A stretch of 21,659 bases of DNA. Origin: Deltaproteobacteria bacterium RIFOXYA12_FULL_61_11. Lineage in GTDB: Bacteria > Bdellovibrionota_F > JAHFAK01 > YA12-FULL-61-11. Position numbers and translations under genes: made by a program. The DNA lies in the NCBI GenBank assembly GCA_001799195.1, contig MGSU01000013.1:1-21659 (forward strand). The letters run 5' to 3'. Positions 5,601-21,659 of the stretch are shown one piece after another. Within the stretch, counting starts at the first letter, position 1. Every line of letters begins with the position of its first letter. The notes below the pieces were generated by a model that made no database searches, was not told where the DNA came from, and saw only the letters and a program-made list of their open reading frames with translations.

Positions 5601-5625
5601 ATACTGTTCTTCGCCCTAAGCTGGT

Positions 5626-6936: not shown

Positions 6937-6999
6937 GTCAACCCTCGTACGGTGAGATCCATGCGAACCTCATGGAGAAGTACGGGGTGAAGGTCGGCT

Positions 7000-7770
7000 T
7001 CAGAACTCCTCCGGACCGGCATTCTGAAGGTTGAGACGCAACTCCTCGACCAGGGCGGCGAACTGCTCGCCGAGATGGTGGCTTACCTCGACGTTACTGG
7101 TCCGCAGGAGACAGCCCCCCTGGGGGATCTGATCGTCCTCTTTGAATACCAATTTTTCCTTTTCGGTGAGTTGCCGCAGGTAGGCCTCTCCTGCCTCATT
7201 CAGCAGCAGGTGGTCGATCGGGTTGAGGAGTACCGTGACCGAGGTGTCGATAACGAGACCGGCCATCGCGGAGTTGATCGTGTGTTTGATGATCTCGAGA
7301 CTGCGGGTCTCGATCTCGTGGCCAATGATCTTTTCGGCAATGGCGATGGAGAGGGTCACCACCTGTTCTTCGGCATCCTTCAGGCTCTGGGCTCGGAGCT
7401 GTACTACCTCGACGAGGATCTGGTTGAGCGCTGCCAGGGGAGCAGCCAATTTCTCCGAGGTCAGGCTCACCCCTTCTTGGAAACCCTGTTCATAGCCCTG
7501 GGCGAACTCGACCTTGAGCTTCTCGTCGAAAATCCGCTTCTCTTCCTCGGCCGAGATCTTGTTGGTCTGGTCTTCGTCGGTGACCCGGAAACCCTCGATG
7601 AAACCGAGTTCGGTCTGCTTCAAGGCTCGGGTGCGCTCGTCATAGAGATCATAGTCGTAGAACCGGTTGTCGCTCTTCTTGAGGAGGATATCGTAGAACT
7701 TCATATCCTTGCGATGGTTCGCGTACTTGGTATCGCGAAGGTTCGTCGGGTTCTTGAGTGGATGTTCCAC
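7000..7770 (-). CDS. fliH: Flagellar assembly protein FliH
   Basis: The 256-residue protein shows the FliH/HrpE organisation: a charged N-terminal part, a region with FAQGYEQGFQEGVSL of the glycine-repeat type seen in FliH, a helical stretch, and a C-terminal domain with VTLSIAIAEKIIGHEIETRS and TSVTVLLNPIDHLLL like the V-ATPase E-subunit. FliH binds and regulates FliI at the cytoplasmic face of the export gate. Start chosen is GTG at 7770 because GAGGG lies about seven bases before it; the internal ATG at 7704 (MKFYDILLKK) has its AGGA too close to be convincing, but it cannot be excluded. It is placed between fliG and fliI, its usual position. Confidence 0.92.
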   Translation of the reverse strand: MEHPLKNPTNLRDTKYANHRKDMKFYDILLKKSDNRFYDYDLYDERTRALKQTELGFIEGFRVTDEDQTNKISAEEEKRIFDEKLKVEFAQGYEQGFQEGVSLTSEKLAAPLAALNQILVEVVQLRAQSLKDAEEQVVTLSIAIAEKIIGHEIETRSLEIIKHTINSAMAGLVIDTSVTVLLNPIDHLLLNEAGEAYLRQLTEKEKLVFKEDDQIPQGGCLLRTSNVEVSHHLGEQFAALVEELRLNLQNAGPEEF

Positions 7771-7827
7771 GGTCAGCCCTCACACCTTATACAGTTCTTG
7801 ACGCAACTCCGCCCGGAGCTGCCTTGC

Positions 7828-8835
7828 TCAGACGTACTCCTCGTCGCCTCGGATGATGACGATCCTGCCTTCTTCCTCGAGCTTCTTCGCGATCTCGCAG
7901 ATGGTCTGCTGGGTCTTGATGACCTCGCTGACCTTGGTCGGCCCCGCAATCTCCATTTCTTCGCGCAACATATCCGCGGCGCGCTCGGACATATTGCGGA
8001 ACATCTTTTCCTTGAGCTCCTCGCTGGCCGACTTGAGAGCGATGACCAGTTCCTCCTGCTTGACCTCTTTGAGGATCTCTTGGATGCCGGCATCGTCGAT
8101 GCTGATGAGGTCCTCGAAGGTGATCATCTTGCGACGGATCTGCACCGCGAGTTCCGGGTTTGTCTTTTCGATATTCCCCAGCACCTGTCGCTCGGCTTGC
8201 TCACCCATACGGTTGAGCATGGAGACCACCGGGTCGATGCCGCCGATCTCGAGGTTGGACCCCACGGCAGTGAGCTTCATCTTGGCTATCTCTTTCTGCA
8301 ACGAGCGGTCGATCTCCCGCACCACATCAGCAGAGATCTTCTCCATGGTAGCCATGCGCAGGATGACCTCGGTCTGCATGTTTTCCGGCAGATGTCCGAG
8401 AATACGGCCGGCCCGCTCGGGATCCAGGATGGTCAGGATCACCGCGATGGTCTGAGGATGCTCCTTCTTGATCAGGGCGGCGATGATGTCCGAATCGAGG
8501 TACTGGATCGACTTGAGGGGAGCATCGTCGTCGCCCTCGAGCATGGACATGAGCAGGTCTGCGCGATCGTCGGACATGGTCCGCTGAATGACCCGCTTGA
8601 GGTATTCGGTGTCGGCCAAGAGGCCGCTGGAGGTGTCGATCAGGGAATGGAACTCGCTGACGATGTTGTTGATCTGGTCGTTCGGGATAGAGCCCATCTT
8701 GGCGATGGCCTGGTTGATCTTCTTGATCTCGCGGTCGTCGAGGAACTGGAACAGGCTGCCGGCGACCTCCTCACCGAGGATCATGACCAGGATGGCCGCC
8801 TTGTCCGGGCCGGTGAGTTGTTGTTTGGGCGCCAT
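7828..8835 (-). CDS. fliG: Flagellar motor switch protein FliG
   Basis: A 335-residue rotor protein of the C-ring, linking the FliF MS-ring to FliM and contacting the stator. The N-terminal domain (GPDKAAILVMILGEEVAGSL) is present. The middle domain carries the family EHPQ motif (KKEHPQTIAVIL, near residue 125) and ILGHLPENMQTEVILRMA. The C-terminal torque domain reads TFEDLISIDDAGIQEILKEV followed by charged helices with FRNMSERAADMLREEME. Length is exactly that expected. AGGA lies six bases upstream of the ATG. A 103-base gap separates it from fliF upstream, containing a six-base-pair hairpin but no clear terminator, so the gene is probably transcribed with fliF. Confidence 0.97.
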   Translation of the reverse strand: MAPKQQLTGPDKAAILVMILGEEVAGSLFQFLDDREIKKINQAIAKMGSIPNDQINNIVSEFHSLIDTSSGLLADTEYLKRVIQRTMSDDRADLLMSMLEGDDDAPLKSIQYLDSDIIAALIKKEHPQTIAVILTILDPERAGRILGHLPENMQTEVILRMATMEKISADVVREIDRSLQKEIAKMKLTAVGSNLEIGGIDPVVSMLNRMGEQAERQVLGNIEKTNPELAVQIRRKMITFEDLISIDDAGIQEILKEVKQEELVIALKSASEELKEKMFRNMSERAADMLREEMEIAGPTKVSEVIKTQQTICEIAKKLEEEGRIVIIRGDEEYV

Positions 8836-8938
8836 GACCGTTCCTCGCTCTTCTGTTGTTCTCCCTCGTCACCGCGACGAGTATAGCACCGGCCGTTTGC
8901 ACACCTCAAGCCGGCAACGCGGTGCGGCACACCTGAGC

Positions 8939-10534
8939 TTACGTAGTCAACCAACCGCGGAGCTGTTGGACCATTTTTTCCGGGTCCTGCATGGCCAATT
9001 CTTTGATCACCCGTTTCTTGTCCTCGATCGACTTCTGGGACGACTTGGCCTCGTCGAGCACTTCTTCCGCCATGGACACCTCCTCCCGTTTCAGGGAGAT
9101 ATTCTGGGTCAACCAGCGGATGATCGGCACGACGATAAACAGCAACGACAGGATCGCGATCAGGAGCAGGCCGCCGATCTTGGCAAAATAGAAGATCATG
9201 GCCTGCTGGCGCATCTTCTCGAGGTATTCGTCGGCGTCGGAGTAGTCGGTGACCTTGAACGGCTTCTCGCGGACCACGACCTCATCCCCGCGGGTTTTGT
9301 CGTAGCCGATCGCGGTTTGGACGAGTTGCTCGAGTTCCTTGAGTTCTTCATCGGTCCGCTTCTCCAGAGTTGATTCTGGACCCTTCACCGTCCGATTCAC
9401 GTCGACCATCACGGCCACGGTCAGCTTCTTGACCTTGCCGTAGGGTTTGGTCGTGCGTTTGGTTTCTTTGTTGATCTCGTAGTCGATCTTCTCGTTCAAA
9501 CGGTCGGAGTTGTTGCCGGCGGTCTGGCGGTTCTCCTGCCCAGGCAAATTTGCCGAGCCCGGCACCCCGGTCGGCTGGTACCGATTGCCCTCGAACTTCT
9601 CGGTCGTGCGTTGCTCGGCCTTGACCACTGCGCTATCCGGATCATAGCGTTCCTCGGTCTTCTCGATTTGCTCGTAATCCACATCGGCAGCGACCTTGGC
9701 GGTCACCTTGCCGGACCCGACAACCTGGCTCAACAATTGGGTGATCTTGGTCTCGTAACTCTTCTCGAGGTTCTTCTGGTACTCGAGCATCGAGGCATTG
9801 AGCTTGTTGAAATCCCCACCGCCGGACCGGTTGAGCATCGCGCCCTTCTGGTCGATGATGGAGATACCCTCGGGTTCGAGTCCCTCGATACTGCTGGCCA
9901 CAAGATGCGTGATACCCATAACCTGGGCCTCGGAGAGAGCCCGACCCGGCTTGAGGCTGAGGATGATCGAGGCCGTGGGCTTGGTTTCCTCCTCCATGAA
10001 AAGTGACTTCTCCGGCAGGACGATGTGGACCCGCGACTTCTGGACCGAATCGATGCTATTGATGGTACGGGCCAATTCACCCTGCAAGGCTCGCTGGTAG
10101 TTGAGCTTTTGCGTGAACTCGGTCATGCCGATGCTCTTGTTGTCGAAAATCTCGAAACCGACCCCCGTACCCTGGGGCACACCCTCACTGGCGAACTGCA
10201 TCCGCAACCTGAGAACCTTGTCGGGTGGGACGAGGAGACTCTGGCCGTTCTGGGACAACACGTGGGGGATCTTCTCTTTCTCGAGTTGCGAGACGATGTG
10301 GTTGGCATCGGAGGGATCGAGGTTGGTGAAGAGCGGCTGGTAGTCCTCTTCAGTGGTGCGGAAGGCCAGCCACGATACCAGCGATATCCCCGAAGCCACG
10401 ATGGCGAGCAGAGCGTAGAATTTTCGATCGAAGAGCAAGGCCGTCAACGAATTGGATCCATTCGCCGGCGCAGCGAGCGGCGTTGGTTGAGGAGTTGTCG
10501 CTGGGGCGTCCTGGACCTGATTCTTGTCGGGCAT
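8939..10534 (-). CDS. fliF: Flagellar MS-ring protein FliF
   Basis: The inner-membrane MS-ring protein on which the basal body is built. The first transmembrane helix (FYALLAIVASGISLVSWLAF) lies near residues 37-57, followed by the ring-building motif region with YQPLFTNLDPSDANHIVSQL, the VPQGTGVGFEIFD segment, and the SRVHIVLPEKSLF motif. The second helix (IGGLLLIAILSLLFIVVPII) precedes a cytosolic tail that binds FliG. I chose the ATG at 10534 (531 residues, beginning MPDKNQ) because AGGAG lies nine bases upstream and because a sigma-54-like promoter at 10571-10586 would place the transcript start near 10560. Longer in-frame starts at 10555 and 10603 exist but fit that promoter poorly. It is the first gene of the operon. 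Confidence 0.95.
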   Translation of the reverse strand: MPDKNQVQDAPATTPQPTPLAAPANGSNSLTALLFDRKFYALLAIVASGISLVSWLAFRTTEEDYQPLFTNLDPSDANHIVSQLEKEKIPHVLSQNGQSLLVPPDKVLRLRMQFASEGVPQGTGVGFEIFDNKSIGMTEFTQKLNYQRALQGELARTINSIDSVQKSRVHIVLPEKSLFMEEETKPTASIILSLKPGRALSEAQVMGITHLVASSIEGLEPEGISIIDQKGAMLNRSGGGDFNKLNASMLEYQKNLEKSYETKITQLLSQVVGSGKVTAKVAADVDYEQIEKTEERYDPDSAVVKAEQRTTEKFEGNRYQPTGVPGSANLPGQENRQTAGNNSDRLNEKIDYEINKETKRTTKPYGKVKKLTVAVMVDVNRTVKGPESTLEKRTDEELKELEQLVQTAIGYDKTRGDEVVVREKPFKVTDYSDADEYLEKMRQQAMIFYFAKIGGLLLIAILSLLFIVVPIIRWLTQNISLKREEVSMAEEVLDEAKSSQKSIEDKKRVIKELAMQDPEKMVQQLRGWLTT

Positions 10535-10570
10535 CGGTACGTTCTCCTTGACCATGGCCGTGCGCCAATT

Positions 10571-10586
10571 AGCAAGAAACGCTCCA
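10571..10586 (-). promoter_or_regulatory. Sigma-54 (RpoN)-like promoter for the fliF operon
   Basis: Read on the minus strand the site is TGGAGCGTTTCTTGCT. It has the invariant GG, ten intervening bases, then GC, and matches the consensus TGGCACG-N4-TTGCT except at two positions (AG for CA). Sigma-54 control of flagellar operons is established in many proteobacteria. The expected transcript start near 10560 leaves a leader of about 26 bases with a ribosome binding site before the fliF ATG at 10534. No enhancer site for an activator was identified. Confidence 0.5.
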
Positions 10587-10764
10587 GCCCACCTGTCCCC
10601 CAAACACTAACAACACCATGGAATAAATAGCAAATAATGAAACACTCAGCAAGCCCCCGAACCTGCTTCGTCAAACCATTGACATCATTCTTCCCGGTCC
10701 TGACACCCCCGCGACCTCGTTCCTCTTCCCTGACCCCTGGATACCTCATCCTCTACCAGGGCTG

Positions 10765-10773
10765 TGGTATACT
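10765..10773 (+). promoter_or_regulatory. Extended -10 promoter candidate for the CxxC small protein
   Basis: TGG directly followed by TATACT forms an extended -10 element (TGnTATAAT type) about 33 bases before the ATG at 10807. No good -35 hexamer is seen at the right distance, which is common for extended -10 promoters. It points away from fliF. Confidence 0.4.
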
Positions 10774-10806
10774 AATCGGGATCACCAGCCGGGGAACCGA
10801 AAAGGG

Positions 10807-11004
10807 ATGATCCAGAGCTACCTCAGTCGCTACCTCGATTTCTCAAAGTGTCACATCATCAAGAAATTCGAGACTTGTGCCCATTGCGGCTGGGAATTGG
10901 TGGCCAGCCATCAAACCGATTTCACCGGTTCGACCGTGGTGCAGACCGTGGTTTGCCAGGGTTGTAAGAAGATCCTCGAGATCTCCCACCACCTCTTGCA
11001 TTGA
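10807..11004 (+). CDS. Small zinc-ribbon-like protein, unknown function
   Basis: A 65-residue protein with two CxxC knuckles, C24xxC27 (CAHCGW) and C50xxC53 (CQGCKK), separated by about 22 residues, the layout of a small treble-clef or zinc ribbon that would bind one zinc. An extra cysteine is at residue 15. There is no signal peptide or membrane helix, so it should be cytosolic. A plausible extended -10 promoter lies just upstream; AAAGGG directly abuts the ATG and GGGGAA lies about ten bases before it, so the ribosome binding site is uncertain. It is divergent from fliF and convergent with miaA, with ten bases between the stops. I do not recognise a named family and assign no function. Confidence 0.65.
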   Translation: MIQSYLSRYLDFSKCHIIKKFETCAHCGWELVASHQTDFTGSTVVQTVVCQGCKKILEISHHLLH

Positions 11005-11014
11005 CCAGTGTCGT

Positions 11015-12013
11015 TCACCCTTCCGGCGACGCGAGGAGAAATTCTTCGACCACCCGGAAGCAGCGTTCCCGATCTCGCAGAGGGTCCAACCACAACGCTT
11101 CGGGTTGAGCCCGTAACCACGTCAATTGGGCCTTTGCGTACCGCCTCGTGCGCACCACGATGGCTTCTTTGACTTGGTCGAGGGGGAGACCGGAGCGCAG
11201 GTGCCCAACCACCTCGCGATACCCGATGGTCTGGAGCGAGGGTTTTGAGGGATCGAGTCCCCTCTCGAGCAAGGCCGAGACCTCGTCGACCAGACCGGCG
11301 GCGAACATGGCCTCGACCCGTTGGGCAATGCGCTCGTAAAGGACTTCCCGCGGCGGAGTCACCACCAGGAGCAGATATCGGTAGCGTACCTCGCGGAAGC
11401 CATGTCCCTCTTTGTACAAGGAGATAGGTCTGCCCGTGGCATAGTAGACCTCGAGGGCGCGGAGCAGCCGGACCTGATCGTTGGGATGGAGCACCGCGGC
11501 CGAGGTCGGGTCTATCCGCTGCAACCAGGCATGAGCATACTCCGGCCCAGCGGCGGCACACAAGGCCTGTACTCTCTCCCTGATTGCAGGAACCACTCCT
11601 TGCGGCAGCTCGAACAGGCCATGCAACAAGGCTTTGAGATAGAGGAACGTCCCCCCGACCACGCAAACCGGCACCTCGGCCTCGGCAATCACCTTGTCGG
11701 CCTCGATTTGAAAACGCTTGGCATTGTAGTCCTGGTCAGGACCAATGACGTCGAACAGATAATGGGGTACTCCCCGGCGCTCCGCCAAAGTGGGCTTGCC
11801 CGTGCCGATGTCCAGACCCTGGCAAACCTGCCGGGAATCCGCGTTGATCGCGATCATGCCGAAACGCAGACCCAACTCCACGGCCAAAGAGGTCTTTCCC
11901 GCAGCGGTAGGACCGCAGAGAACGACCAGAGGCCTCCCAGAGCAACTGGTTACCGAGCCGGGGACGACCGGGATGTCGCAACCGCGTGTAGTATCTTGAC
12001 CGGTCAACCGCAC
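11015..12013 (-). CDS. miaA: tRNA dimethylallyltransferase MiaA
   Basis: Transfers a dimethylallyl group to A37 of tRNAs that read codons starting with U. Visible motifs are the P-loop GPTAAGKT at 34-41, ADSRQVCQGLDIGTGKPT, which binds the tRNA and substrate, GGTFLYLKALLHGL, and the C-terminal QTIGYREVVGHL. Start chosen is GTG at 12013 (332 residues) because GGAG lies eight bases before it; a TTG at 12007 that overlaps the manA stop is another possibility. A further in-frame start at 12094 would need a much longer overlap with manA and is disfavoured. Overlap with manA is ten bases, implying co-transcription. The protein is slightly longer than usual because of a non-conserved N-terminal extension. 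Confidence 0.96.
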   Translation of the reverse strand: MRLTGQDTTRGCDIPVVPGSVTSCSGRPLVVLCGPTAAGKTSLAVELGLRFGMIAINADSRQVCQGLDIGTGKPTLAERRGVPHYLFDVIGPDQDYNAKRFQIEADKVIAEAEVPVCVVGGTFLYLKALLHGLFELPQGVVPAIRERVQALCAAAGPEYAHAWLQRIDPTSAAVLHPNDQVRLLRALEVYYATGRPISLYKEGHGFREVRYRYLLLVVTPPREVLYERIAQRVEAMFAAGLVDEVSALLERGLDPSKPSLQTIGYREVVGHLRSGLPLDQVKEAIVVRTRRYAKAQLTWLRAQPEALWLDPLRDRERCFRVVEEFLLASPEG

Positions 12014-13044
12014 TTGATCAGCTCCGCGTCGCCATCCAACTCGCAGGTTCCGAGCGAAGCCGGGACCAAAAGACACTCCCCACGTCTGAAGCACCAGGTT
12101 TCCCCTCTCGCATCCCGCACGGTCCCTCGACCGTTATAGATCACCAACAGCTCGTACCGACCCTCCCCTGGCAAGCTCCAGGGTCTCCCCGGGGATATCT
12201 TCACGAGCGAGGTCCTGAAAGGTAAGCGCGCCACGAGGTCCACCTCTGACTGAGCCCTCCGTTCGACGGCCGTATGGACGAGAGTCCTGCCGTCGAGCTC
12301 GCAACAGGCACAGGCCAGGGCCTCGGCGAGGTGCAGTTGCCGAGCGTGCCCCCCGGGACACGGGCGACCCTCGTGGTCGTAGCGGCGGCCCCAGTCCCAC
12401 AATCGATACGTCACCCCCGTGGCCCTGGGACGGAGACTCTGGACCTCGAGCATAGTGATCCCGCGGCCGAGAGCGTGAATGGTCCCCGGCGGTACCTCGA
12501 TCCAATCGCCGGGCAGGACCGGAAGGAAACGCAACAAGGGCCGAAGGTCTTCTTCCCCGCTAAGGGCCTGTTCCAATCCGCCGCGGCCGACCTCATCGCG
12601 CAAGCCGAGGTACACCCCAGCGCCGGGCTCAGCGGCGAGGATGTACCACCCCTCGGACTTGCCTGACTCCCCAGGCGCCAAGCCCACGAACCGTTCTTCG
12701 GGATGGACCTGCACCGAGAGGTCTTCTGCCGCATCGATATACTTCACCAGGACCGGTAGGCTGGCCCCATGACCGTTCCAAACCGCTTCGCCGAGTATGC
12801 TCGGTCCTCGGGCCTCGAGCAGGTGCCCCAACGGTATACGCTGGCAATCGAGGAGCACTTCGCTCTCGAAGGCCGGGTCGGTGGAGGCTTCCCAACTCTC
12901 ACCGACCACGGTATAGGCCCTGCGCTCTTCGCGGAGGGGCAATCCGGCCTTGAGTTCGTCGAGGATCCTCCTTCCTCCCCACGGGGTCCGGGACGGAGGA
13001 GTAAAATTATCGGGAGAGAGTCGCAACACGCCAAGATCGTTCAT
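12004..13044 (-). CDS. manA: Mannose-6-phosphate isomerase, class I (ManA)
   Basis: A cupin-type, zinc-dependent isomerase that interconverts mannose-6-phosphate and fructose-6-phosphate, feeding GDP-mannose and surface polysaccharide synthesis. The 346-residue product shows WGGRRI near 22, ESWEAS near 49, the metal motif VQVHPEE at 111-117 and GKSEGWYIL at 128-136. PPGTIHALGRGITMLEVQ follows, carrying a second metal-ligand histidine. The ATG at 13044 (MNDLGVLRL) was preferred over a GTG at 13116 because the conserved fold begins soon after it and a promoter candidate (13082-13110) lies between the two. The ribosome binding site (GTGGGA) is weak. It overlaps miaA by ten bases. Confidence 0.92.
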   Translation of the reverse strand: MNDLGVLRLSPDNFTPPSRTPWGGRRILDELKAGLPLREERRAYTVVGESWEASTDPAFESEVLLDCQRIPLGHLLEARGPSILGEAVWNGHGASLPVLVKYIDAAEDLSVQVHPEERFVGLAPGESGKSEGWYILAAEPGAGVYLGLRDEVGRGGLEQALSGEEDLRPLLRFLPVLPGDWIEVPPGTIHALGRGITMLEVQSLRPRATGVTYRLWDWGRRYDHEGRPCPGGHARQLHLAEALACACCELDGRTLVHTAVERRAQSEVDLVARLPFRTSLVKISPGRPWSLPGEGRYELLVIYNGRGTVRDARGETWCFRRGECLLVPASLGTCELDGDAELIKCG

Positions 13045-13081
13045 GTTCCCACTGCTCGTTCGGACACAGATGTTCTCGGCC

Positions 13082-13110
13082 ACGCTAGGTGCAACGGGAG
13101 AAAATGTCAA
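13082..13110 (-). promoter_or_regulatory. Sigma-70-type promoter candidate for manA-miaA
   Basis: On the minus strand a perfect TTGACA (13105-13110) is followed after 17 bases by TAGCGT (13082-13087). The -10 matches only three of six consensus positions. The predicted start would lie roughly 30-35 bases before the manA ATG at 13044. Confidence 0.35.
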
Positions 13111-13396
13111 AACCACTACCTGCAGTCATTCTCCTGAGGATGGCTTGGGATTGGTTGCCAACAGAGTGCCGAGAGGCTACTCTCCAGCCCCTTTCCAGGT
13201 CAGGTGCTCTACCGGAGCGAGGTGGTGTGCGCATGGTTCAATGGATGGTGCTGGTGTAAACGAGACGCATCCTAGCCCGAACAGGGCGTACTATGCTTGC
13301 CGATACAACGGCTCGATGGTACCTTGCCAACTTAGCGAACATGGTTGGGGGAATCGAGCGTGGAAACTGAGTTCGGCATTGGTATGTGCTCCTGTT

Positions 13397-13406
13397 CCCC
13401 CCCCCC
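13397..13406 (+). repeat. Homopolymeric C10 tract upstream of hsdM
   Basis: Ten consecutive C residues lie 26 bases before the hsdM ATG, between a T-rich stretch and the weak AAGGA ribosome binding site at 13416-13420. Tracts of this kind are prone to slipped-strand mispairing and, when close to a start codon, can change expression. Whether this one varies cannot be told from one sequence. Confidence 0.9.
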
Positions 13407-13432
13407 ACGAATGTGAAGGAACCAACTGACTG

Positions 13433-15775
13433 ATGGACCAAACTGCTCACAATAAGATCGTCTCCTTCATCTGGGGTATTGCTGACGACGTCCTGCGCGA
13501 TCTTTTCAAGCGCGGCAAGTATCCAGATGTGATTCTGCCGATGTGCGTCATCCGGCGCATGGATGCGGTGCTCGAGCCGACCAAGCAGAAGGTGCTCGAT
13601 ACCAGGAAGATGCTCGACGAGGCGCGGATCACCGAACAGCGCGCCGCGCTCTGTGATGCTGCTGGCCAGGCTTTCTACAACACCTCGAAGTTCACCCTGC
13701 GCGACCTCAGGTCCCGTGGCAGCCAGCAGCAGTTGCTTGCCGATTTCGAAGACTACCTCAACGGCTTCTCACCCAACGTCCAGGACATCCTCGACAACTT
13801 CAAATTCCGCAATCAGCTTTCCACGCTCTCCAAGGCCGATGCCATCGGCACGCTCATCAACAAGTTCCTCGACCCCGAAATAGACCTCTCGCCGTCGGGC
13901 ATCGACAACCATGCCATGGGCACGGTCTTCGAAGAACTTGTCCGCAAGTTCAACGAGGACAACAACGAAGAGGCGGGCGAGCACTGGACGCCGCGCGACG
14001 CAGTGCGCCTGATGGCCAACTTTGTGTTTCTGCCCATAGCAGATCAGCTGAGGTCGGGCACCTATCTGCTGTATGACTGCGCCTGTGGCACCGGCGGCAT
14101 GCTTACCGTAGCAGAGGAAACGCTCACCAAGATCGCTTCCAAGCGTAACCAGGAGATCGAAAGCTTGCTTTATGGGCAGGAAAGTCAGCCTGAAACTTAT
14201 GCCGTTTGCAAGGCGGACATGCTGCTCAAGGGGGAAGGCGGAAACGCCGATCACATCGTCGGTGGCGCAGAATGGTCCACTCTCTCGCATGATGCCTTTC
14301 CTGCCCAGGAATTCGATTTCATGCTCGCCAATCCGCCCTACGGCAAGAGTTGGAAGAAAGACCTCGAAGCGATGGGCGGCAAGGATGGCATGCGCGACCC
14401 ACGCTTCAAGGTGATGCACCAGGGCGAAGAACTGTCGCTGGTAACGCGCTCCAGCGATGGGCAGATGCTATTCCTGGCCAATATGGTTTCCAAGATGAAC
14501 CACCATTCCAAACTCGGCAGCCGTATCGCCGAGGTCCACAACGGATCCTCGCTCTTTACCGGCGACGCGGGCCAGGGCGAGAGCAATATCCGGCGCTGGC
14601 TGATCGAGAACGATTGGTTGGAGGCCATCGTCGCACTACCGCTCAACCTCTTCTACAACACCGGCATCGCCACCTACGTCTGGGTGCTCTCCAATAGGAA
14701 GCCCGCGCACCGTAAGGGCCAGGTGCAGCTCATCGATGCCAGTCAGTGGTTCAAGCCGTTGCGCAAGAACCTCGGCAAGAAGAACTGCGAGCTCTCGCCC
14801 GAGGACATCGAGCGCATCAGCCGCACCTTCCTCGAGTTCCAGGAAACCCCCGAGTCGAAAATCTTCCCCAACGCCGCCTTCGGCTACTGGAAGGTCACGG
14901 TCGAGCGACCGCTTCGCCTGAACAGCCAACTCACTCTCAAGGCCATCGAGACCCTGCGCTACACCTCGGGTGACGAGGATCTCCGCACGACGCTCTATGA
15001 GGAGTTCGGTGACGACCTCTTCACTCACTTCGCCAAGGTCTCCGCCGCGCTGGAGAAACGCCTAGCCGACTGGGGCAACGACGAGGACGAGGGCGACGAT
15101 GAAGAGGGCGGTGGCACCAAGAAAGGCCTACCCGAAAAGAAGCGCAAGAAGTTGCTGGACCCCAAGACCTGGGAGCGCGACGGCCGCCTGGTCGAAGTCG
15201 CCACCAAGCTGCGGGCAGCGCTGGGCGACAGGCTTTTCGAGGACCACAACGTCTTCCGCGACCTCGTGGATGCCGCGCTCAAGCAGGCCGAGCTCAAGCT
15301 CCCCGCCGCCGACCTGAAGCAGATTCTCAAAGCTATAAGCTGGCGCGTCGAGACCGCACCGCCGGTTATCGCCAAGGTGCACAAGCCCGGCAAGGCCAAG
15401 GCCGACCCCCTGCACGGCCTATTCCTGCTCCCCGCTACCTCTGGGAGAGGGGCCGGGGGTGAGGGTACTTCGCGTATCGTGGAGTATGAGCCCGACTCCG
15501 ACCTGCGCGACACCGAGCAGGTGCCGCTGCTCGAAGACGGTGGCCCAGAGAATGATGGAATCGCTGCCTTTTTCCGCCGCGAGGTTCTGCCCTACACGCC
15601 CGACGCGTGGATCAAGGAGGACGCCACCAAGATCGGCTACGAGGTCAGCTTCACGCGCCACTTCTACAAGCCGCAGCCGCTGCGCACACTGGAGGAGATC
15701 AGCGCCGACATCCTCGCCATCGAGAAGGAAGCCGAGGGGCTGCTGGATGGAATTATCGGAGGAGAGAAGCCATAA
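13433..15775 (+). CDS. hsdM: Type I restriction-modification DNA methyltransferase subunit HsdM (long form)
   Basis: The 780-residue protein is the N6-adenine methylase subunit of a type I system, acting with HsdS. Residues about 5-140 form the HsdM N-terminal helical domain (IVSFIWGIADDVLRDLFKRG). The SAM-binding motif I is DCACGTGGM at 215-223, and the catalytic NPPY is at 300-303. WTPRDAVRLM precedes motif I as usual. It exceeds the common 500-residue HsdM by a C-terminal extension ending in FTRHFYKPQPLRTLEEISAD, typical of the longer HsdM class. A GC-rich dispersed repeat interrupts the extension in frame at residues 666-679. The ribosome binding site AAGGA is 12 bases from the ATG, and a C10 tract lies upstream. 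Its TAA shares one base with the ATG of the SIR2 gene. Confidence 0.95.
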   Translation: MDQTAHNKIVSFIWGIADDVLRDLFKRGKYPDVILPMCVIRRMDAVLEPTKQKVLDTRKMLDEARITEQRAALCDAAGQAFYNTSKFTLRDLRSRGSQQQLLADFEDYLNGFSPNVQDILDNFKFRNQLSTLSKADAIGTLINKFLDPEIDLSPSGIDNHAMGTVFEELVRKFNEDNNEEAGEHWTPRDAVRLMANFVFLPIADQLRSGTYLLYDCACGTGGMLTVAEETLTKIASKRNQEIESLLYGQESQPETYAVCKADMLLKGEGGNADHIVGGAEWSTLSHDAFPAQEFDFMLANPPYGKSWKKDLEAMGGKDGMRDPRFKVMHQGEELSLVTRSSDGQMLFLANMVSKMNHHSKLGSRIAEVHNGSSLFTGDAGQGESNIRRWLIENDWLEAIVALPLNLFYNTGIATYVWVLSNRKPAHRKGQVQLIDASQWFKPLRKNLGKKNCELSPEDIERISRTFLEFQETPESKIFPNAAFGYWKVTVERPLRLNSQLTLKAIETLRYTSGDEDLRTTLYEEFGDDLFTHFAKVSAALEKRLADWGNDEDEGDDEEGGGTKKGLPEKKRKKLLDPKTWERDGRLVEVATKLRAALGDRLFEDHNVFRDLVDAALKQAELKLPAADLKQILKAISWRVETAPPVIAKVHKPGKAKADPLHGLFLLPATSGRGAGGEGTSRIVEYEPDSDLRDTEQVPLLEDGGPENDGIAAFFRREVLPYTPDAWIKEDATKIGYEVSFTRHFYKPQPLRTLEEISADILAIEKEAEGLLDGIIGGEKP
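15428..15467 (+). repeat. GC-rich dispersed repeat element inserted in frame within hsdM
   Basis: The stretch CTCTGGGAGAGGGGCCGGGG and the bases on each side resemble the imperfect palindromic repeats of many proteobacteria. These elements give peptides like TPGPSPRGSGE on one strand and SGRGAGGEG on the other. Here it adds about 14 residues (LPATSGRGAGGEGT) without breaking the hsdM frame. No second copy was seen in the window. Confidence 0.6.
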
Positions 15776-17205
15776 TGGCCGTGGACTTGAAGGCGCACCT
15801 GAAAAGCGGTGGGCAGGTTCTTAAGACACGCGACGACCATGCTCCTGTCTTTCTGAATCGGACTGCAGATTCGACGGTAGCCGATCAGTTCACTTTGCCC
15901 GCAGACTCGCAATGCTCTTGGGCGAAACCCGGAGAATCATTCTGCACAGAGAAGCTACGCCCGCGCATCGAGCCATGGTTGACGGCGCTCGTTCAGTCTG
16001 AGCATCTGTCGCTGCTGGTCGGCTCGGGGCTTACGCATGCCGTGCACCGACTGGGAACGGGCGCGAACCTGCCCGGAATGAACGCAGTCACTTTCAAGTG
16101 TCTGGGTGACGAGATTACACAAGAAGCAAAACGTACATCCGAAGCGGCCGGGCGCCATGCGGTGAACTTCGAGGACCAGATCCGAGTCGCGAACGAGTTG
16201 CTGCGCGGACTCGAGATACTTGCTGTGGCGAAGGAGGCTGGCTCTGAAGAGCAAAATCAAGTTGCCACACTGCGAAGTGACCTGAAGGACATCATTGAGT
16301 TATTCGCCAAATCCATCCTGCAGTGCGAAGAGAGCCTCGCGAAAGCCAATGGGACAAAGCGTGAGGAAGCCTTCAACTACCTCATCAGCTTCTTGATGAG
16401 CTTTGCAAGTCGTGCCGGTACGCGCGAGCGCCTGCAGCTCTTCACCACCAACTACGACCGCTTCATCGAAGCCGGTGCGGACGCGGCTGGGCTACGTCTC
16501 ATCGACCGCTTTGTCGGCACGCTGGCGCCGGTATTCCGCGCGTCGCGTCTCGATGTGGACCTACACTACAACCCACCTGGTATCCGCGGGGAGCCTCGCT
16601 ACCTCGAAGGCGTCGCACGTTTCACCAAACTGCACGGATCGGTCGATTGGCTTGCCAATGATGGCTCGATTCGCCGTATCGGCCTGCCCTTTGGCGCTCA
16701 GGAGGTTGCACCTTTCCTGTCGGCGTCTGGCCTGACAGGCAGCGATGCCTCCGGCCTGATGATATATCCCAATGCCGCCAAGGATCGCGAGACGTTGGTG
16801 TACCCCTACGTCGAATTGTTCCGGGACTTTGCTGCCGCCATCTGCCGTCCGAACAGCACCGTGGTCTGTTACGGCTACAGTTTCGGCGACGAGCACATCA
16901 ACCGCGTGCTTGAGGACATGCTGACGATTCCATCGGCGCACCTAGTCATAATCGCTTACGACGATCCGTTGGGTCGCATCATGGACACCTACAAGCGGCT
17001 GGGTCGGCATGCTCAGATCACCCTGCTCATCGGCAACCATCTCGGCGACTTGCTGGCCCTGGTCAATCACTACCTGCCGAAGCCCGCGATCGACCGCACG
17101 ACCTTCCGCATGGCGGAGCTGCTCAAGGCGCGCTGGGGCACAGGTCCGCAGGACGCCATCGAAGCGGAGACCCCGCCTACGAACGATGGGGGCTCGGCGT
17201 CATGA
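15775..17205 (+). CDS. SIR2-family protein, predicted NADase of a SIR2-HerA defence pair
   Basis: A 476-residue protein with the sirtuin NAD-binding signatures: LLVGSGLTH at 80-88 (the GAG-like loop), TTNYD at 224-228 with the conserved Asn226, KLHGSVDW at 285-292 with the catalytic-type His287, and YGYSFGDEHINRVL at 366-379 closing the Rossmann fold. There is no cysteine zinc module between them, unlike deacetylase sirtuins, which fits the defence SIR2 class that hydrolyses NAD+ on phage infection. A helical insert fills about 110-215. The start is the ATG sharing one base with the hsdM stop, with GGAGGAGA upstream; its own stop overlaps the HerA ATG (ATGA). Adjacency to HerA is the hallmark of the two-gene SIR2-HerA antiphage system. 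NADase activity is inferred from motifs. Confidence 0.88.
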   Translation: MAVDLKAHLKSGGQVLKTRDDHAPVFLNRTADSTVADQFTLPADSQCSWAKPGESFCTEKLRPRIEPWLTALVQSEHLSLLVGSGLTHAVHRLGTGANLPGMNAVTFKCLGDEITQEAKRTSEAAGRHAVNFEDQIRVANELLRGLEILAVAKEAGSEEQNQVATLRSDLKDIIELFAKSILQCEESLAKANGTKREEAFNYLISFLMSFASRAGTRERLQLFTTNYDRFIEAGADAAGLRLIDRFVGTLAPVFRASRLDVDLHYNPPGIRGEPRYLEGVARFTKLHGSVDWLANDGSIRRIGLPFGAQEVAPFLSASGLTGSDASGLMIYPNAAKDRETLVYPYVELFRDFAAAICRPNSTVVCYGYSFGDEHINRVLEDMLTIPSAHLVIIAYDDPLGRIMDTYKRLGRHAQITLLIGNHLGDLLALVNHYLPKPAIDRTTFRMAELLKARWGTGPQDAIEAETPPTNDGGSAS

Positions 17206-19328
17206 GTCGGACACCGTTCGAGCAAGCAGGCAGTCTGCTGATTGGCACGGTGGACTTTGTTTCGCCGGACGAGATCAAGGTGGTTTTGGACATCGAGGCC
17301 CCTGATTCGGTTGCTTTGAATACCGGAGGCCCACGGCAGTTTCCCAGGGTCAACGGCTACCTGCTGATCCCTGTGGATGAAGCGTTTCTGGTTGGCCAGG
17401 TCGAGTGGCTCACCGTCGAACGCTCCGCCTTTCCGAAGCGGCGTGGGATGCAGGACTTCGGGCTGGTAGATCTGCCGTATCCGCTGCGCAAGTTGAGGCT
17501 CAATCCGCTCGGCACGCTCCGCAAACGCTCACGAGACGGGGCATACGACTTCCGCCGCGGCGCGGACGGCTTGCCCTCGATTGGCGCTGCGGTTCTCTTG
17601 CCCACGGATAGCCAGCTTCGGTCGATCGTCGAATCGGGGGAACAACGACGGGTGAAAATAGGCACGAGCCCGCTCGCCGGCGATGCGGAGGTCTCTATCG
17701 ATCCCAATCGCTTATTCGGGCGTCACCTCGCCGTGTTGGGAAACACCGGAAGCGGCAAGTCCTGCTCGGTCGCCGGCTTGATCCGTTGGAGCCTTGAACA
17801 GGCGACGCATGCACGCTCGGAAGCAGGCGCAACGGGGCGACCCAATGCGCGATTCATCGTGCTCGACCCAAACGGAGAATACTTGCGCGCCTTTAGTGGC
17901 GACGACGCGCTCAAAGCACGCATCTTCAAGGTGAATCCGAGTGGGGGCGGAACAGCGCTGAAGGTGCCACTTTGGTTCTGGAACAGCGCGGAGTGGTGTT
18001 CGTTCACACAGGCCAGCGCGAGGACGCAGCGGCCCCTGCTCCGGCGCGCGCTCCGAGAAGTGAAAGCTGGCCGGATCGGCACCGTCGAACCGACTGAAGA
18101 GGAGCGAAAGCTAGGTCTGCGCCGATATCTCTCGTCCCGATTCATCACTATTCAGCGCGATCTGCGGTCTGGGGCAATCCAGACCGACGAGAGCAAATTC
18201 GGCTTTCGCCTAAAAGCGATGAACGACGATCTGGAGCAGAAGCACCAGGAGTTCCCGTCTGACGGACTCGACGCCATTCGGGAGGCCATCGAAGATGCTT
18301 TGAAGGCAACCTTCAATACCTTCGTCGATAAAAGTACGCACAAGACTGTGGAGTACTACCGCGCTTTCACGGAGGGCCAAGTCCGCCAGATAGTTGATGC
18401 GCTACGCGCTTCTCTCAACGGTCTCGGCGGAGTCATCTACCAGGAGGGTCCGGACGACGATATTCCGTTGGCGTTCAGCGGCACCGACCTCGCGGATCAT
18501 CTAGATTTCCTCGCAGAGCAAGAAAACGTCAGCCAGTTCCTCGACTTTTTGGTGGCCCGTATCCGAACGTTCCTGTCTGACCCGAAGATGACGGCGGTCA
18601 TTGGAAATGTAGGAGCAGTCACGCTTGAGACGTGGCTCAGCGACTACATCGGCAATAACAACGCTGATGGTGGGTGCGTATCGGTGATCGATCTGTCCCT
18701 TGTACCAACCGAGGTCGTTCATGTTGTTACCGCCGTCATCGCGCGCATGGTATTCGAGGCATCGCAACGGTACGTGAAACTGAATAATGGTGTCGCGCTG
18801 CCCACTGTCCTGGTGATGGAAGAGGCGCATACCTTCATCAAGCGCTACAAGGAGGACGTCGAGAATCAGGAAACCGCCAGCATCTGCTGCCAGGTCTTCG
18901 AGCGCATCGCCCGCGAAGGTCGCAAGTTCGGACTCGGCTTAGTCCTATCATCGCAACGCCCATCTGAGCTCTCGCCCACGGTGCTGTCGCAGTGCAACAC
19001 CTTCCTGCTCCACCGCATCAGCAATGATCGCGATCAGGAACTCGTCAACCAACTCGTCCCAGACAACCTCCGCGGACTGCTCCGCGAGCTGCCCTCGTTG
19101 CCCTCGCAAAGCGCCATTCTGCTCGGCTGGGCGTCGGAGCTGCCGGTTCTGGTAAAAATGAATGACCTGCCGAAGTCGCAACAGCCCCGCTCCGACGATC
19201 CGGACTTCTGGGGAGTCTGGGTTGGCAGGGGTGACAACGAAGAAAACATTGAAAGGAATATTGACTGGTCGAAGATAGCCGCTGACTGGCAGGGTTGGCC
19301 GCCGAACAAAGTTGAGGGCCAGTCATGA
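17202..19328 (+). CDS. HerA-family ATPase (FtsK/HerA superfamily), partner of SIR2
   Basis: A 708-residue hexameric-type ATPase. Residues about 1-110 look like a HAS-barrel (GSLLIGTVDFVSPDEIKVVL), the N-terminal domain of HerA. Walker A is GNTGSGKS at 180-187, followed by FIVLDPNGEY. A helical insertion spans about 265-430. Walker B is VLVMEEAH at 536-543 with Glu540-Glu541, and LSSQRPSEL around 582-590 carries the conserved sensor and candidate arginine finger Arg586. In SIR2-HerA systems the HerA hexamer assembles with SIR2 and stimulates the NADase and nuclease response. The gene is coupled by ATGA overlaps to the SIR2 gene before it and hsdS after it. A conjugation ATPase (TraC/VirB4) is unlikely because the HAS-barrel is present and transfer genes are absent. 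Confidence 0.9.
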   Translation: MSRTPFEQAGSLLIGTVDFVSPDEIKVVLDIEAPDSVALNTGGPRQFPRVNGYLLIPVDEAFLVGQVEWLTVERSAFPKRRGMQDFGLVDLPYPLRKLRLNPLGTLRKRSRDGAYDFRRGADGLPSIGAAVLLPTDSQLRSIVESGEQRRVKIGTSPLAGDAEVSIDPNRLFGRHLAVLGNTGSGKSCSVAGLIRWSLEQATHARSEAGATGRPNARFIVLDPNGEYLRAFSGDDALKARIFKVNPSGGGTALKVPLWFWNSAEWCSFTQASARTQRPLLRRALREVKAGRIGTVEPTEEERKLGLRRYLSSRFITIQRDLRSGAIQTDESKFGFRLKAMNDDLEQKHQEFPSDGLDAIREAIEDALKATFNTFVDKSTHKTVEYYRAFTEGQVRQIVDALRASLNGLGGVIYQEGPDDDIPLAFSGTDLADHLDFLAEQENVSQFLDFLVARIRTFLSDPKMTAVIGNVGAVTLETWLSDYIGNNNADGGCVSVIDLSLVPTEVVHVVTAVIARMVFEASQRYVKLNNGVALPTVLVMEEAHTFIKRYKEDVENQETASICCQVFERIAREGRKFGLGLVLSSQRPSELSPTVLSQCNTFLLHRISNDRDQELVNQLVPDNLRGLLRELPSLPSQSAILLGWASELPVLVKMNDLPKSQQPRSDDPDFWGVWVGRGDNEENIERNIDWSKIAADWQGWPPNKVEGQS

Positions 19329-20752
19329 TCGCCGATCTCAAGCCGTATGCGGAGTACAAGGAGTCGGGCTCGTGCTGGTTGGCGAGCGTACCGTCGCATT
19401 GGGAAGTTCGCAATCTCCGTACGCTAATCCGGCCACGGAATGAGCGTAACCGTCCTGAACTGCCGCTGCTCTCCGTGGCTCGTGAGAGGGGTGTTTTTGT
19501 CCGCTCTCTTACAGATGCCGACGAGAACCACAATGTAATTCCCGAGGACTTGAGCAACTACAAAGTCGCTCGTGCAGGCAATCTTGTCATCAACAAGATG
19601 AAGGCATGGCAGGGTTCGATGGGTATCGCTCCACGCGACGGAATCGTCAGCCCAGCGTACTTCGTATTCGACTTCGGCATCGCAAACCGCGCGTTTGGCC
19701 AAGCCCTTCTGCGTAGCAAACCGTATGTCGCACACTTTGGGCAGGCTTCCGACGGAGTTCGAGTCGGCCAGTGGGATTTGACCATCGCTGGTATGCGGCA
19801 GATTCCGATGCTCGCACCTCCCCCAGACGAGCAGGCGGCGATTGTGCGGTTTCTGGACTGGGCAACCGGTAAGCTGGAGCGGGCAATCCGGGCGAAGCGG
19901 AAGGTGATCGCGCTGCTGGGCGAGCAGAAGCAGGCCATCATCCACCGCGCGGTCACCCGCGGCCTCGACCCCTCCGTCCCCCTCAAACCCTCCGGCATCC
20001 CCTGGCTTGGGGATATTCCGCAGCATTGGGAGGTGCGGAAGCTTCGGACCTTGGTTCACCATATCGATCAGGGTGTCAGCCCCCTTGCAGTGGGTTTTCT
20101 CGCCGAAGGTGACTCATGGGGCGTGCTGAAGTCAGGCTGTGTGAACAGAGGCGTTTTTCGCGAAGCGGAGCACAAGCAGCTCGCGCGCAGTTTTCAGATC
20201 GATCCAGCCATTGTCGTGAAAGTCGGCGATGTCCTCGTTTCGCGCGCCTGCGGGTCGCCTTCACTCGTGGGATCGGTTGGGCGCGTGAGGTCACTTCGCT
20301 ATCAGCTTATCCTCTCAGATAAAACATTTCGCGCGGTCTTTCGTGATGTCGTAGATGTGGACTTCATGGTGTTCGCGATGAACTGTCCCTACTATCGGCA
20401 TCAGGTTGAGCAGGCGATCAGCGGCGCGGAAGGAATGGCTAACAATCTTCCTTTGTCATCCCTCCGCGATTTCAGGTTCGCGATCCCTCCCGCCAGTGAG
20501 GCGACAGCGATCGCCGGACACCTTGAACGCGAAACGACGGGGCTGCAGATCGCCATCTCCCGTCTCGAACGCGAGATCGCGCTCCTCCGCGAGTACCGCA
20601 CCCGCCTTGTCGCCGATGTGGTGACCGGCAAGCTCGATGTGCGCGAGGCGGCGGCACGGTTGCCCGACGAAAAGCCGCTCGATAGTGTCGAGGGCGGCGC
20701 CGACCTGGGCGACGAGTCCGAAGCCGTTGACGAGGAGGAGGTAGAAACATGA
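19325..20752 (+). CDS. hsdS: Type I restriction-modification specificity subunit HsdS
   Basis: A 475-residue protein with the two-fold HsdS layout that reads a bipartite DNA target. Each half opens with a matching motif: SGSCWLASVPSHWEVRNLRT near 15-34 and SGIPWLGDIPQHWEVRKLRT near 223-242. Target recognition domain 1 spans about 35-170 and domain 2 about 245-385. The conserved coiled coils are EQAAIVRFLDWATGKLERAI near 172-192 and EATAIAGHLERETTGLQIAI near 392-412, ending in REYRTRLVADVVTGKLDVRE. An acidic tail follows. Its ATG overlaps the HerA stop (ATGA). Part of its 3' end is repeated in diverged form at 21206-21286. Which bases it recognises cannot be predicted here. Confidence 0.95.
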   Translation: MIADLKPYAEYKESGSCWLASVPSHWEVRNLRTLIRPRNERNRPELPLLSVARERGVFVRSLTDADENHNVIPEDLSNYKVARAGNLVINKMKAWQGSMGIAPRDGIVSPAYFVFDFGIANRAFGQALLRSKPYVAHFGQASDGVRVGQWDLTIAGMRQIPMLAPPPDEQAAIVRFLDWATGKLERAIRAKRKVIALLGEQKQAIIHRAVTRGLDPSVPLKPSGIPWLGDIPQHWEVRKLRTLVHHIDQGVSPLAVGFLAEGDSWGVLKSGCVNRGVFREAEHKQLARSFQIDPAIVVKVGDVLVSRACGSPSLVGSVGRVRSLRYQLILSDKTFRAVFRDVVDVDFMVFAMNCPYYRHQVEQAISGAEGMANNLPLSSLRDFRFAIPPASEATAIAGHLERETTGLQIAISRLEREIALLREYRTRLVADVVTGKLDVREAAARLPDEKPLDSVEGGADLGDESEAVDEEEVET

Positions 20753-20874
20753 GCACCGGGTGCCGCCAAATGTCGATGACGGAGCCGGAAGTCTTGTTTG
20801 AGCCTCAACCGGACGATCGCTGTAAGTGCCTGCTGTTATATGAGTTCTTATTTGAGTGGAAAACGTCCTCATGA
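20749..20874 (+). CDS. 41-residue coupled small ORF, unknown
   Basis: Reads MSTGCRQMSMTEPEVLF and onward to WKTSS. It starts in an ATGA overlap with the hsdS stop and ends in an ATGA overlap with the start of the AlbA_2 fragment, and GGAGG lies seven bases before its ATG, so translation is likely. It contains three cysteines (residues 5, 25 and 27) and a hydrophobic stretch, LLLYEFLFEW. I do not recognise it. It may be a genuine small protein, or the start of a longer gene lost when this segment recombined. Confidence 0.45.
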   Translation: MSTGCRQMSMTEPEVLFEPQPDDRCKCLLLYEFLFEWKTSS

Positions 20875-21239
20875 AAACCTGGATAACCAAAGCCTTGGAG
20901 TTGCTGAGGGCAAGCCTGGAGCAGCCGAAGCACGAACTGAACGAGCTGGATTGGAAGGCCGTGCCGTCGCCAGACAAAAAACGCCTGACGGAACACCTGT
21001 CGGCACTCTCCAACCAGCCTGGTGGCGGCTATCTGGTTTTCGGAGTCGATAATACCGGCACACCCACTGGCATGGATGAGAAATCGGTCGAGACCACCGT
21101 GAACCAACTGGCCAACCTCGGGCGGGCGGGGCTTGATCCTCCTTTGGCAATCGACCACGCCGTCGTGGAATACGAATCTGTCCGGCTACTACTTGTGCTT
21201 GAGCGCCGCTCGACACCCCCGAGGGCGGCGCGGTGTTGA
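20871..21239 (+). pseudogene. Truncated AlbA_2/Schlafen-like ATP-binding domain gene
   Basis: The frame from ATG at 20871 encodes about 111 residues of an AlbA_2 (Schlafen-like, divergent AAA) domain: HELNELDWK, LSALSNQPGGGYLVFGVDN, then a helical TTVNQLANLGRAGL and the strand VRLLLVLER. The family protein is normally 400-500 residues. Here homology stops at about 21205, where the sequence switches into a diverged copy of the hsdS 3' tail in another frame, adding roughly ten unrelated residues (STPPRAARC) before a chance stop. An in-frame GTG at 20856 is an alternative start. It is a diverged paralogue of the AlbA_2 gene that begins at 21283. Confidence 0.75.
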
Positions 21240-21286
21240 GCGACGAGACTGGGATTGAGATCGATGACAACGAGGCCGAAGCATGA
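21206..21286 (+). pseudogene. Remnant of an hsdS 3' end (diverged duplicate of the hsdS tail)
   Basis: In the frame beginning CCG at 21206 it reads PLDTPEGGAVLSDETGIEID, then DNEAEA and a stop, against PLDSVEGGADLGDESEAVDE followed by EEVET at the end of the intact HsdS (20675-20752). The eight bases CCGCTCGA open both copies, and GAGGGCGGCG and GCGACGAG recur in both. Its TGA overlaps the ATG of the next gene exactly as the intact hsdS stop overlaps its follower. No start or upstream hsdS sequence belongs to it. Confidence 0.75.
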
Positions 21287-21659
21287 GTGTTGACGATCAC
21301 ATCGCTCTCGTCGATCGCTTGCGTGCTCTGTCCACCGAGACCGAGTGGGTCGAATTCAAGCGCGACAACGCAAATCCGCAGGAGATCGGCGAGTACCTGT
21401 CGGCCCTGGCGAACGAGGCCAGCCTAAGCAATCAGCCGCGGGGCTACCTGGTGTTCGGCATCGACGATACCACGCACGACGTGGTGGGCACCCGCTTCGA
21501 CCCCTACGCGGCCAAGGGAAAGGGCAACCAGGACCTACTGCCCTGGTTGGGCGCCCTGCTGCAGCCGAACCCCGGCGTTGAGGTTCTTATGGTCGACCAC
21601 CCATCAGGGCGCGTCGTAATGCTGGCTGTGGGCCCGGCTCGTGACCGCCCGACCGCGTT
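21283..21659 (+). CDS. AlbA_2/Schlafen-like ATP-binding domain protein, 5' part only
   Basis: The frame from ATG at 21283 stays open to the window end, giving 125 residues. It opens MSVDDHIALVDRLRALSTET and then shows the AlbA_2 core ETEWVEFKRDNANP, IGEYLSALANEA, NQPRGYLVFGIDD and, later, GVEVLMVDHPSGRVVMLAVG. Members often carry a winged-helix or ATPase-like C-terminal part and occur beside type I restriction genes and other defence systems; their exact role is not settled. GAGG lies about eight bases upstream. The ATG overlaps the stop of the hsdS-tail remnant, so this gene originally followed an hsdS directly. Confidence 0.85.
   Translation, partial: MSVDDHIALVDRLRALSTETEWVEFKRDNANPQEIGEYLSALANEASLSNQPRGYLVFGIDDTTHDVVGTRFDPYAAKGKGNQDLLPWLGALLQPNPGVEVLMVDHPSGRVVMLAVGPARDRPTA

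Follow-up and report, generated by a model that had tools for sequence, protein, structure and literature searches.

We describe a SIR2-HerA gene pair nested between the hsdM and hsdS genes of a type I restriction-modification (RM) operon in Deltaproteobacteria bacterium RIFOXYA12_FULL_61_11. The stretch of DNA that was analysed (hereafter, the window) is one entire contig (contig C13, 21,659 bases) of a draft genome of 4.64 Mb in 342 contigs. The comparison of this arrangement with loci from distant lineages has revealed that the interval between hsdM and hsdS is occupied by many different modules in related operons; our reading, to which we give a probability of roughly 0.8, is that a full type I RM operon carries SIR2-HerA as independent cargo in a swappable slot, i.e. 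that the operon would be the carrier of the pair and not its partner.

The hsdM-SIR2-HerA-hsdS genes of the window

The four genes are located on the + strand and all of their reading frames are open: hsdM (13433..15775) encodes a type I modification (N6-adenine methyltransferase) subunit of 780 amino acids (aa) (Pfam HsdM_N and N6_Mtase; PADLOC MTase_I PDLC03029, 853 bits); SIR2 (15775..17205) encodes a predicted sirtuin-like NADase subunit of 476 aa (Pfam SIR2_2; PADLOC SIR2 PDLC04079, 522 bits); HerA (17202..19328) encodes a predicted hexameric ATPase/translocase subunit of 708 aa (Pfam DUF87; PADLOC HerA PDLC04098, 866 bits); and hsdS (19325..20752) encodes the specificity subunit of 475 aa (PADLOC Specificity_I PDLC03072, 330 bits). 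The identity of HsdS is taken from PADLOC alone, while that of the other three gene products is taken from both Pfam and PADLOC. The start of SIR2 is the ATG at 15775, the longer start at 15607 in the list of open reading frames (ORFs) being mechanical.

The left edge of the slot is the TAATG of hsdM and SIR2 (ccaTAATGgcc, 15773..15777, +), where stop and start overlap by 1 base; SIR2 and HerA overlap by the 4 bases of an ATGA (gtcATGAgtc, 17202..17205, +), and the right edge is a second ATGA, also of 4 bases, between HerA and hsdS (gtcATGAtcg, 19325..19328, +). The order hsdM, SIR2, HerA, hsdS with stop/start overlaps of 1 or 4 bases, proposed in a first-pass annotation of this DNA, is therefore borne out, the genes being intact and the junctions being of 1, 4 and 4 bases, and the families matched by Pfam and PADLOC agree with its reading of a NADase-ATPase pair within a type I operon. 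Scans of the window for a + strand sigma-70-like site upstream of hsdM, and for terminators and RNA families, returned no such site and no Rfam match; these scans are uninformative for the phylum of the window.

SIR2-HerA systems, also known as Nezha, deplete NAD+ and protect V. cholerae against the phages ICP1-3, an activity that needs two active-site residues and HerA (PMC11559045); the complex consists of 12 SIR2 and 6 HerA subunits, with its activation signal being listed as unclear in a review (PMC12198126). The corresponding residues of the window SIR2, N226 (in TTNYD) and H287 (in KLHGS), align with the catalytic Asn and His of the E. coli SIR2 and are invariant across 46 sequences, and the top Foldseek matches of the AlphaFold model of this protein are to the E. 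coli SIR2 of SIR2-HerA. The Walker A motif GNTGSGKS (residues 180-187) and the Walker B residues E540-E541 of HerA are likewise invariant across 44 sequences, with the best fold matches of the HerA model being the HerA proteins of the SIR2/HerA and HerA-DUF4297 complexes. Since the two proteins score below the cut-offs of the NCBIfam equivalogs SIR2_antiphage (132 of 500 bits) and HerA_antiphage (212 of 850 bits), while they match the PADLOC subfamily models, the pair is, by sequence, of the SIR2-HerA kind, but of a subfamily distinct from these equivalogs. Compared with the known SIR2-HerA (Nezha, GAO_19) anti-phage system, the window has the same adjacent genes, a SIR2 with Asn/His and a HerA ATPase; it differs from that system in its subfamily and in being situated within a type I operon. 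The window copy would be expected to act as a NADase in phage defence. Among phage records, matches to the SIR2 are weak and distant only and give no hint of a phage origin.

Recurrence of the nested order

Two samplings have been used. The window SIR2 was compared with 84,980 species genomes, yielding 80 loci that were annotated with hidden Markov models (HMMs) made from those same loci; the window HsdM was compared with about 1,500 genomes from five phyla, and the neighbourhoods of the best matches were inspected. The former set is skewed to SIR2-HerA, while the latter is unskewed except for its seed genomes. The trees are quick ones, without bootstrap, and cargo labels outside the tested representatives come from clustering and from the sequence at the gene start.

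The order hsdM-SIR2-HerA-hsdS occurs in 17 other loci from at least eight phyla, so that the conservation across distant lineages that the first-pass annotation had made a test of its proposal has been found. Three of these loci (L155, L239 and L245) came from the HsdM-based sampling and the others from the SIR2-based one. The order is present in Gemmatimonadota (L006, L245), Pseudomonadota (L009, L019, L024), Bacillota (L012, L021, L022, L155 and L079, the last from Candidatus Carbobacillus), Synergistota (L017, an isolate, and L239), Acidobacteriota (L025), Actinomycetota (L011), Latescibacterota (L013) and Cyanobacteriota (L018). A few loci have truncated ends or a displaced hsdM: L011 is a short contig whose final bases open hsdS, L007 is a short contig that starts within SIR2 and retains SIR2-HerA-hsdS only, and the hsdM of L013 and of L018 lies 4-5 kb further upstream. 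Wherever three junctions could be read (12 of 12 nested loci), every junction is an overlap.

For the 17 nested members that were tested on the SIR2 tree, 4 label changes suffice, as compared with 15.7 for shuffled labels, i.e. nesting is clustered in one lineage, and a single origin of nesting is compatible with the starred branches. Judged by gene order and these trees, nesting is a genuine and long-standing arrangement that has spread widely by transfer. A chance insertion or an assembly artefact in one genome might be suspected from a draft of 342 contigs and a window that is a single whole contig, but the same order is found in isolates (L017, L019) and on megabase contigs (L013, L245), among them Acetomicrobium hydrogeniformans (2.1 Mb), Hydrogenophilus thiooxidans and a Gemmatimonadota contig of 5.18 Mb, while on a Latescibacteria chromosome of 5.97 Mb it occurs with hsdM set apart by a duplicated gene; because the order recurs in distant phyla, we reject this explanation, the probability of which is negligible.

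The relatives of the pair on enterobacterial plasmids (54-57% identity) had been considered as further nested cases and were discarded: they stand alone amid insertion sequence (IS) elements, outside hsd operons. A frameshift, or else an error of assembly, breaks the nested SIR2 at L155:5163-6567; the reading frames of hsdM, HerA and hsdS, and of as much of hsdR as is retained, are open in this locus.

An exchangeable slot between hsdM and hsdS

The HsdM of the window falls, on the HsdM tree, in a clade whose hsdM-hsdS interval is mostly filled, with varied contents. At least 13 kinds of cargo, SIR2-HerA among them, alternate in the loci of this clade, and the slot can also be empty. The other cargo types include GmrS (DUF262), GmrSD, Ppl, YhcG, Fic, AbiD/Abi_2, PD-Lambda-3_B, DUF6602, a Hachiman-like pair (PDC-M23A/B), a UvrD/AAA_30 helicase, AAA_13 proteins that we label RloC-like (PADLOC PDC-S06; with CxxC motifs like those of a zinc hook) and a protein of 934 aa with TPR repeats and no PADLOC match (L169:7746-10550, also in L170). 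The PADLOC models of the PDC and HEC series presumably stem from Payne et al. 2024. The cargo families are recognised defence modules or candidate ones, and the TPR protein is itself a candidate defence gene; the slot can also serve as a site of discovery, e.g. through cargo that, like this protein, lacks a PADLOC match.

The cargo is fitted closely to its flanks: 20 of 23 non-SIR2 cargoes start between -10 and +4 nucleotides (nt) from the hsdM stop, most often with a 4-base overlap, and 19 of the 23 stop between -12 and +8 nt from the hsdS start. Modules can also be stacked in one slot, as in L157 (about 4950-13955, in operon orientation), where a GmrS-like gene, a Hachiman-like pair and a split Ppl are found. 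The HsdM relatives on Klebsiella and Aeromonas plasmids (57%) were tried as slot carriers and set aside, having a plain hsdM-hsdS order with no cargo.

The exchange of cargo is visible among close relatives. The nearest kin of the window HsdM (about 83-88%) carry GmrS (L242), GmrSD (L243), an RloC-like protein (L246), SIR2-HerA (L245) or nothing (L244). Between L017, which carries SIR2-HerA, and L238, which carries the RloC-like AAA_13 protein, DNA identity is 98.5% in hsdM and 95.2% in hsdR; between L155 (SIR2-HerA) and L158 (Ppl), it is 93.5% in hsdM and, in an aligned stretch of 576 nt, 96.5% in hsdR, whereas in the slot it does not rise above background. The hsdS genes of the latter two loci are 74-100% identical in their first part and 73% identical as a whole, and the idea that L155 and L158 share their specificity was ruled out, the likeness being limited to that first part. 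From these alignments, slot exchange is recent and precise. Near-identical RM systems with different cargo amount to natural exchange experiments, by which cooperation can be tested against mere co-travel.

The trees agree with this pattern. On the HsdM tree, a minimum of 32 changes is required for the slot labels taken together; the presence of SIR2-HerA needs 12, as compared with a mean of 14.0 for shuffled labels (26 of 500 shuffles are as low), with the starred branches forcing at least 5, and is thus close to random. Among the nested loci, the distances of SIR2 and HsdM are correlated (Spearman 0.61-0.63), as compared with 0.93 for HsdM and HsdR. On the basis of the HsdM tree and the distance test, we reject the view that SIR2-HerA has mainly followed the restriction system in strict cophylogeny, although a moderate correlation remains. 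The first-pass annotation would have regarded its proposal as refuted by an arrangement confined to this genome or its close relatives, with unlinked trees and no functional dependence: the order has proved to be far wider, and the distances of SIR2 and HsdM in nested loci are correlated, but only moderately.

The nested SIR2 lineage and its tree neighbours also occur outside the slot, next to another type I system (L023) or with no recognised restriction gene adjoining (L014, L015). Others of them lie, in L008, L020 and L036, between putative endonuclease/methylase genes, named from their N-terminal sequence, and a common downstream gene of 690 aa; this neighbourhood is a putative second multi-gene host for SIR2-HerA.

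The right end of the operon

Downstream of hsdS, beyond the stretch delimited by the first-pass annotation, the window contains the remnant of an AlbA_2 (Schlafen-type) gene (20856..21239, +; Pfam SLFN_AlbA_2; weak tblastn match) in the interval between hsdS and hsdR, followed by a second AlbA_2 gene (21283..21659, +; tblastn with the homologue from L245) that is interrupted by the end of the contig. According to tblastn with this homologue, the second gene is split over two contigs of the same genome, residues 1-124 being encoded in the window and residues 153-550 in contig C42, which begins at residue 153 and continues into an intact HsdR of 1007 aa with FELK, GSGKS and DEAH motifs (C42:1483-4506). 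The type I gene set of hsdM, hsdS and hsdR is therefore present and intact in the genome. As C13 ends and C42 starts within the same AlbA_2 gene, the full operon is most likely, on this homology, hsdM-SIR2-HerA-hsdS-(AlbA_2 remnant)-AlbA_2-hsdR; in L245, on the Gemmatimonadota contig of 5.18 Mb, the same whole order runs through hsdR without interruption and without the remnant.

The hsdS-hsdR interval is a second slot, which holds DarT/DarG, RhuM-type or AlbA_2 genes in loci of the HsdM clade. A copy of the tail of hsdS is located 3' of the AlbA_2 remnant, as a direct repeat of 43 nt (20674-20716 and 21205-21247); this second hsdS-tail-like stretch (21205-21285) overlaps the downstream AlbA_2 gene by an ATGA, as if an insertion into the slot had duplicated the junction.

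Carrier or partner

If the operon is a carrier, a single transcript would probably cover the whole of it, with translation coupled from gene to gene. The restriction system would act as a first line by cutting unmodified DNA, and SIR2-HerA as an independent second line, in which a complex of SIR2 dodecamers and HerA hexamers is formed and NAD+ is depleted upon phage infection; biochemical coupling between the Hsd proteins and SIR2-HerA would be absent. Refilling of the slot may take place by recombination within conserved sequence of the adjoining hsdM and hsdS, and the cargo would gain from nesting by common expression and by transfer with a mobile restriction operon.

The first-pass annotation had instead suggested a functional linkage of the pair to HsdM and HsdS, for example that the modification state, or DNA contact guided by HsdS, sets when SIR2-HerA fires. 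A linkage specific to this pair is not supported, in view of near-identical HsdM and HsdR proteins that occur with other cargo or none, of the at least 13 unrelated module types and of close SIR2-HerA relatives outside the slot. The form suggested has the gene order, with the overlaps, as its sole support, and we regard it as very improbable: HsdS recognition regions vary freely among nested loci (in L019 and L021 the DNA of SIR2 is 93-99% alike at the start, while identity drops to 28-66% in the first half of hsdS), the same SIR2-HerA lineage is found alone and beside putative other methylase or restriction genes, and its tie to HsdM on the HsdM tree is weak. A different form of coupling would resemble PrrC of EcoprrI: SIR2-HerA would be held latent, or triggered, by the Hsd complex or by phage anti-restriction proteins inhibiting that complex, and nesting would preserve both stoichiometry and the switch; in its general form, this could apply to every type of slot cargo. 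PrrC is a precedent, being encoded, as the pair is here, within an hsd operon and triggered when Stp inhibits the enzyme (PMC12707154; PMC3506569), although the effector of the window is SIR2 with HerA and not an anticodon nuclease of the PrrC family. Such a guard would also be in keeping with coupled translation across every junction, with the moderate correlation of SIR2 and HsdM distances and with the clustering of nested SIR2s. Against it stand the unrelated kinds of cargo (at least 13) and the empty slots that accompany near-identical HsdM and HsdR, the occurrence of the same SIR2-HerA lineage without this restriction system, and the published SIR2-HerA, which acts without hsd genes (PMC11559045); because cargo is exchanged so freely, a specific interface between Hsd and effector is disfavoured, and we consider a guard of this kind unlikely.

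The carrier reading has its own difficulties. The correlation of SIR2 and HsdM distances (Spearman 0.61) and the clustering of nested SIR2s imply that SIR2-HerA remains in the slot for long times, and such long residence would also fit some adaptation to the carrier. Furthermore, hsdR and the remaining part of AlbA_2 lie on the separate contig C42, which is joined to C13 by homology and with no sequence overlap, and many of the sampled loci are metagenome bins, several of which could be misassigned.

The helical cassette of HerA

The HerA gene contains a dimorphic cassette (about residues 271-485; 18012..18656, +), a helical-bundle insertion recognised by its bimodal identity and sharp recombination edges, the window type being grouped as T4. 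The predicted model of this region is all-helical apart from one beta hairpin, and we take the region here to equal the helix-bundle domain that has been described for HerA (PMC12198126). In pairs of HerA proteins with flanks more than 70% identical, the cassettes are either about 20-30% or more than 40% identical, with few values between; mapped on the flank tree, the cassette type must have changed at least 24 times, both in nested systems and in those that stand alone. The exchange is clearest between L044 (11362-13494) and L063 (11362-13491), where DNA identity is 95-100% in SIR2 and 95-99% in the HerA flanks, but about 40% over a cassette of roughly 600 nt, with edges near gene nucleotides 812 and 1417.

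Homology between the two types can still be recognised (hhalign probability 99.9), and the helical domain, as these alignments indicate, is present as two main alleles swapped by recombination. SIR2 is not altered by such swaps, which makes the cassette a candidate for a role in sensing, or in the evasion of phage inhibitors. As the possible determinant of what SIR2-HerA responds to, it can be tested directly. A broader conjecture, which we hold to be doubtful, is that the slot selects cargo answering to the restriction state, all modules being back-ups for the case that a phage disables the RM system, with the HerA cassette sensing or evading the phage and being exchanged in the manner of the HsdS recognition regions.

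Relation to known embedded defence systems

Payne et al. 2024 (bioRxiv 10.1101/2024.01.29.577857) reportedly treat, in general terms, defence genes that are embedded within systems of several genes.

Several type I operons are known to harbour a second defence module, as the window does: PrrC is embedded in EcoprrI (PMC12707154); the rlo genes of C. jejuni and TgvAB of the V. cholerae island VPI-2 are embedded in type I operons (PMC11411939, where Payne et al. 2024 is cited); and DarTG2 of enteropathogenic E. coli (EPEC) is placed in the hsdS-hsdR interval, which has been described as a possible hotspot of recombination (PMC12255303). The positions differ: DarTG2 occupies the hsdS-hsdR interval and the position of TgvAB is likened to that of RloF between hsdR and hsdS, whereas the slot of the window is between hsdM and hsdS; the window also differs from these operons in its SIR2-HerA cargo and in the exchange of many cargo types within one HsdM clade.

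Sir2 enzymes were tied to type I RM systems, and repeated displacement of toxins in RM loci was proposed, by Makarova et al. 2012 ('Live virus-free or die'), a work that predates the NADase studies of SIR2-HerA and whose consulted sections describe neither a nested order nor an exchange of cargo at the DNA level (PMC3506569). The sir2/herA pairs (GAO_19) of S. thermophilus are part of a defence island, where they are inserted downstream of RM systems or between them, with nesting inside an hsd operon not being described in the sections consulted (PMC11514479). Our full-text literature search, with preprints and most subscription journals outside its scope, returned no report of SIR2-HerA between hsdM and hsdS. 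Embedding in type I operons is hence already known, and SIR2-HerA in the hsdM-hsdS slot is a new form of it: in at least eight phyla, restriction operons of one clade act as carriers, with complete defence systems taking each other's place in a slot that is defined precisely by gene boundaries.

Elsewhere in the window, an ORF of 1156 aa (223-3693) appears, by eye only, to join a spermidine-synthase-like membrane part with an FMN-binding/4Fe-4S (NosR-like) part.

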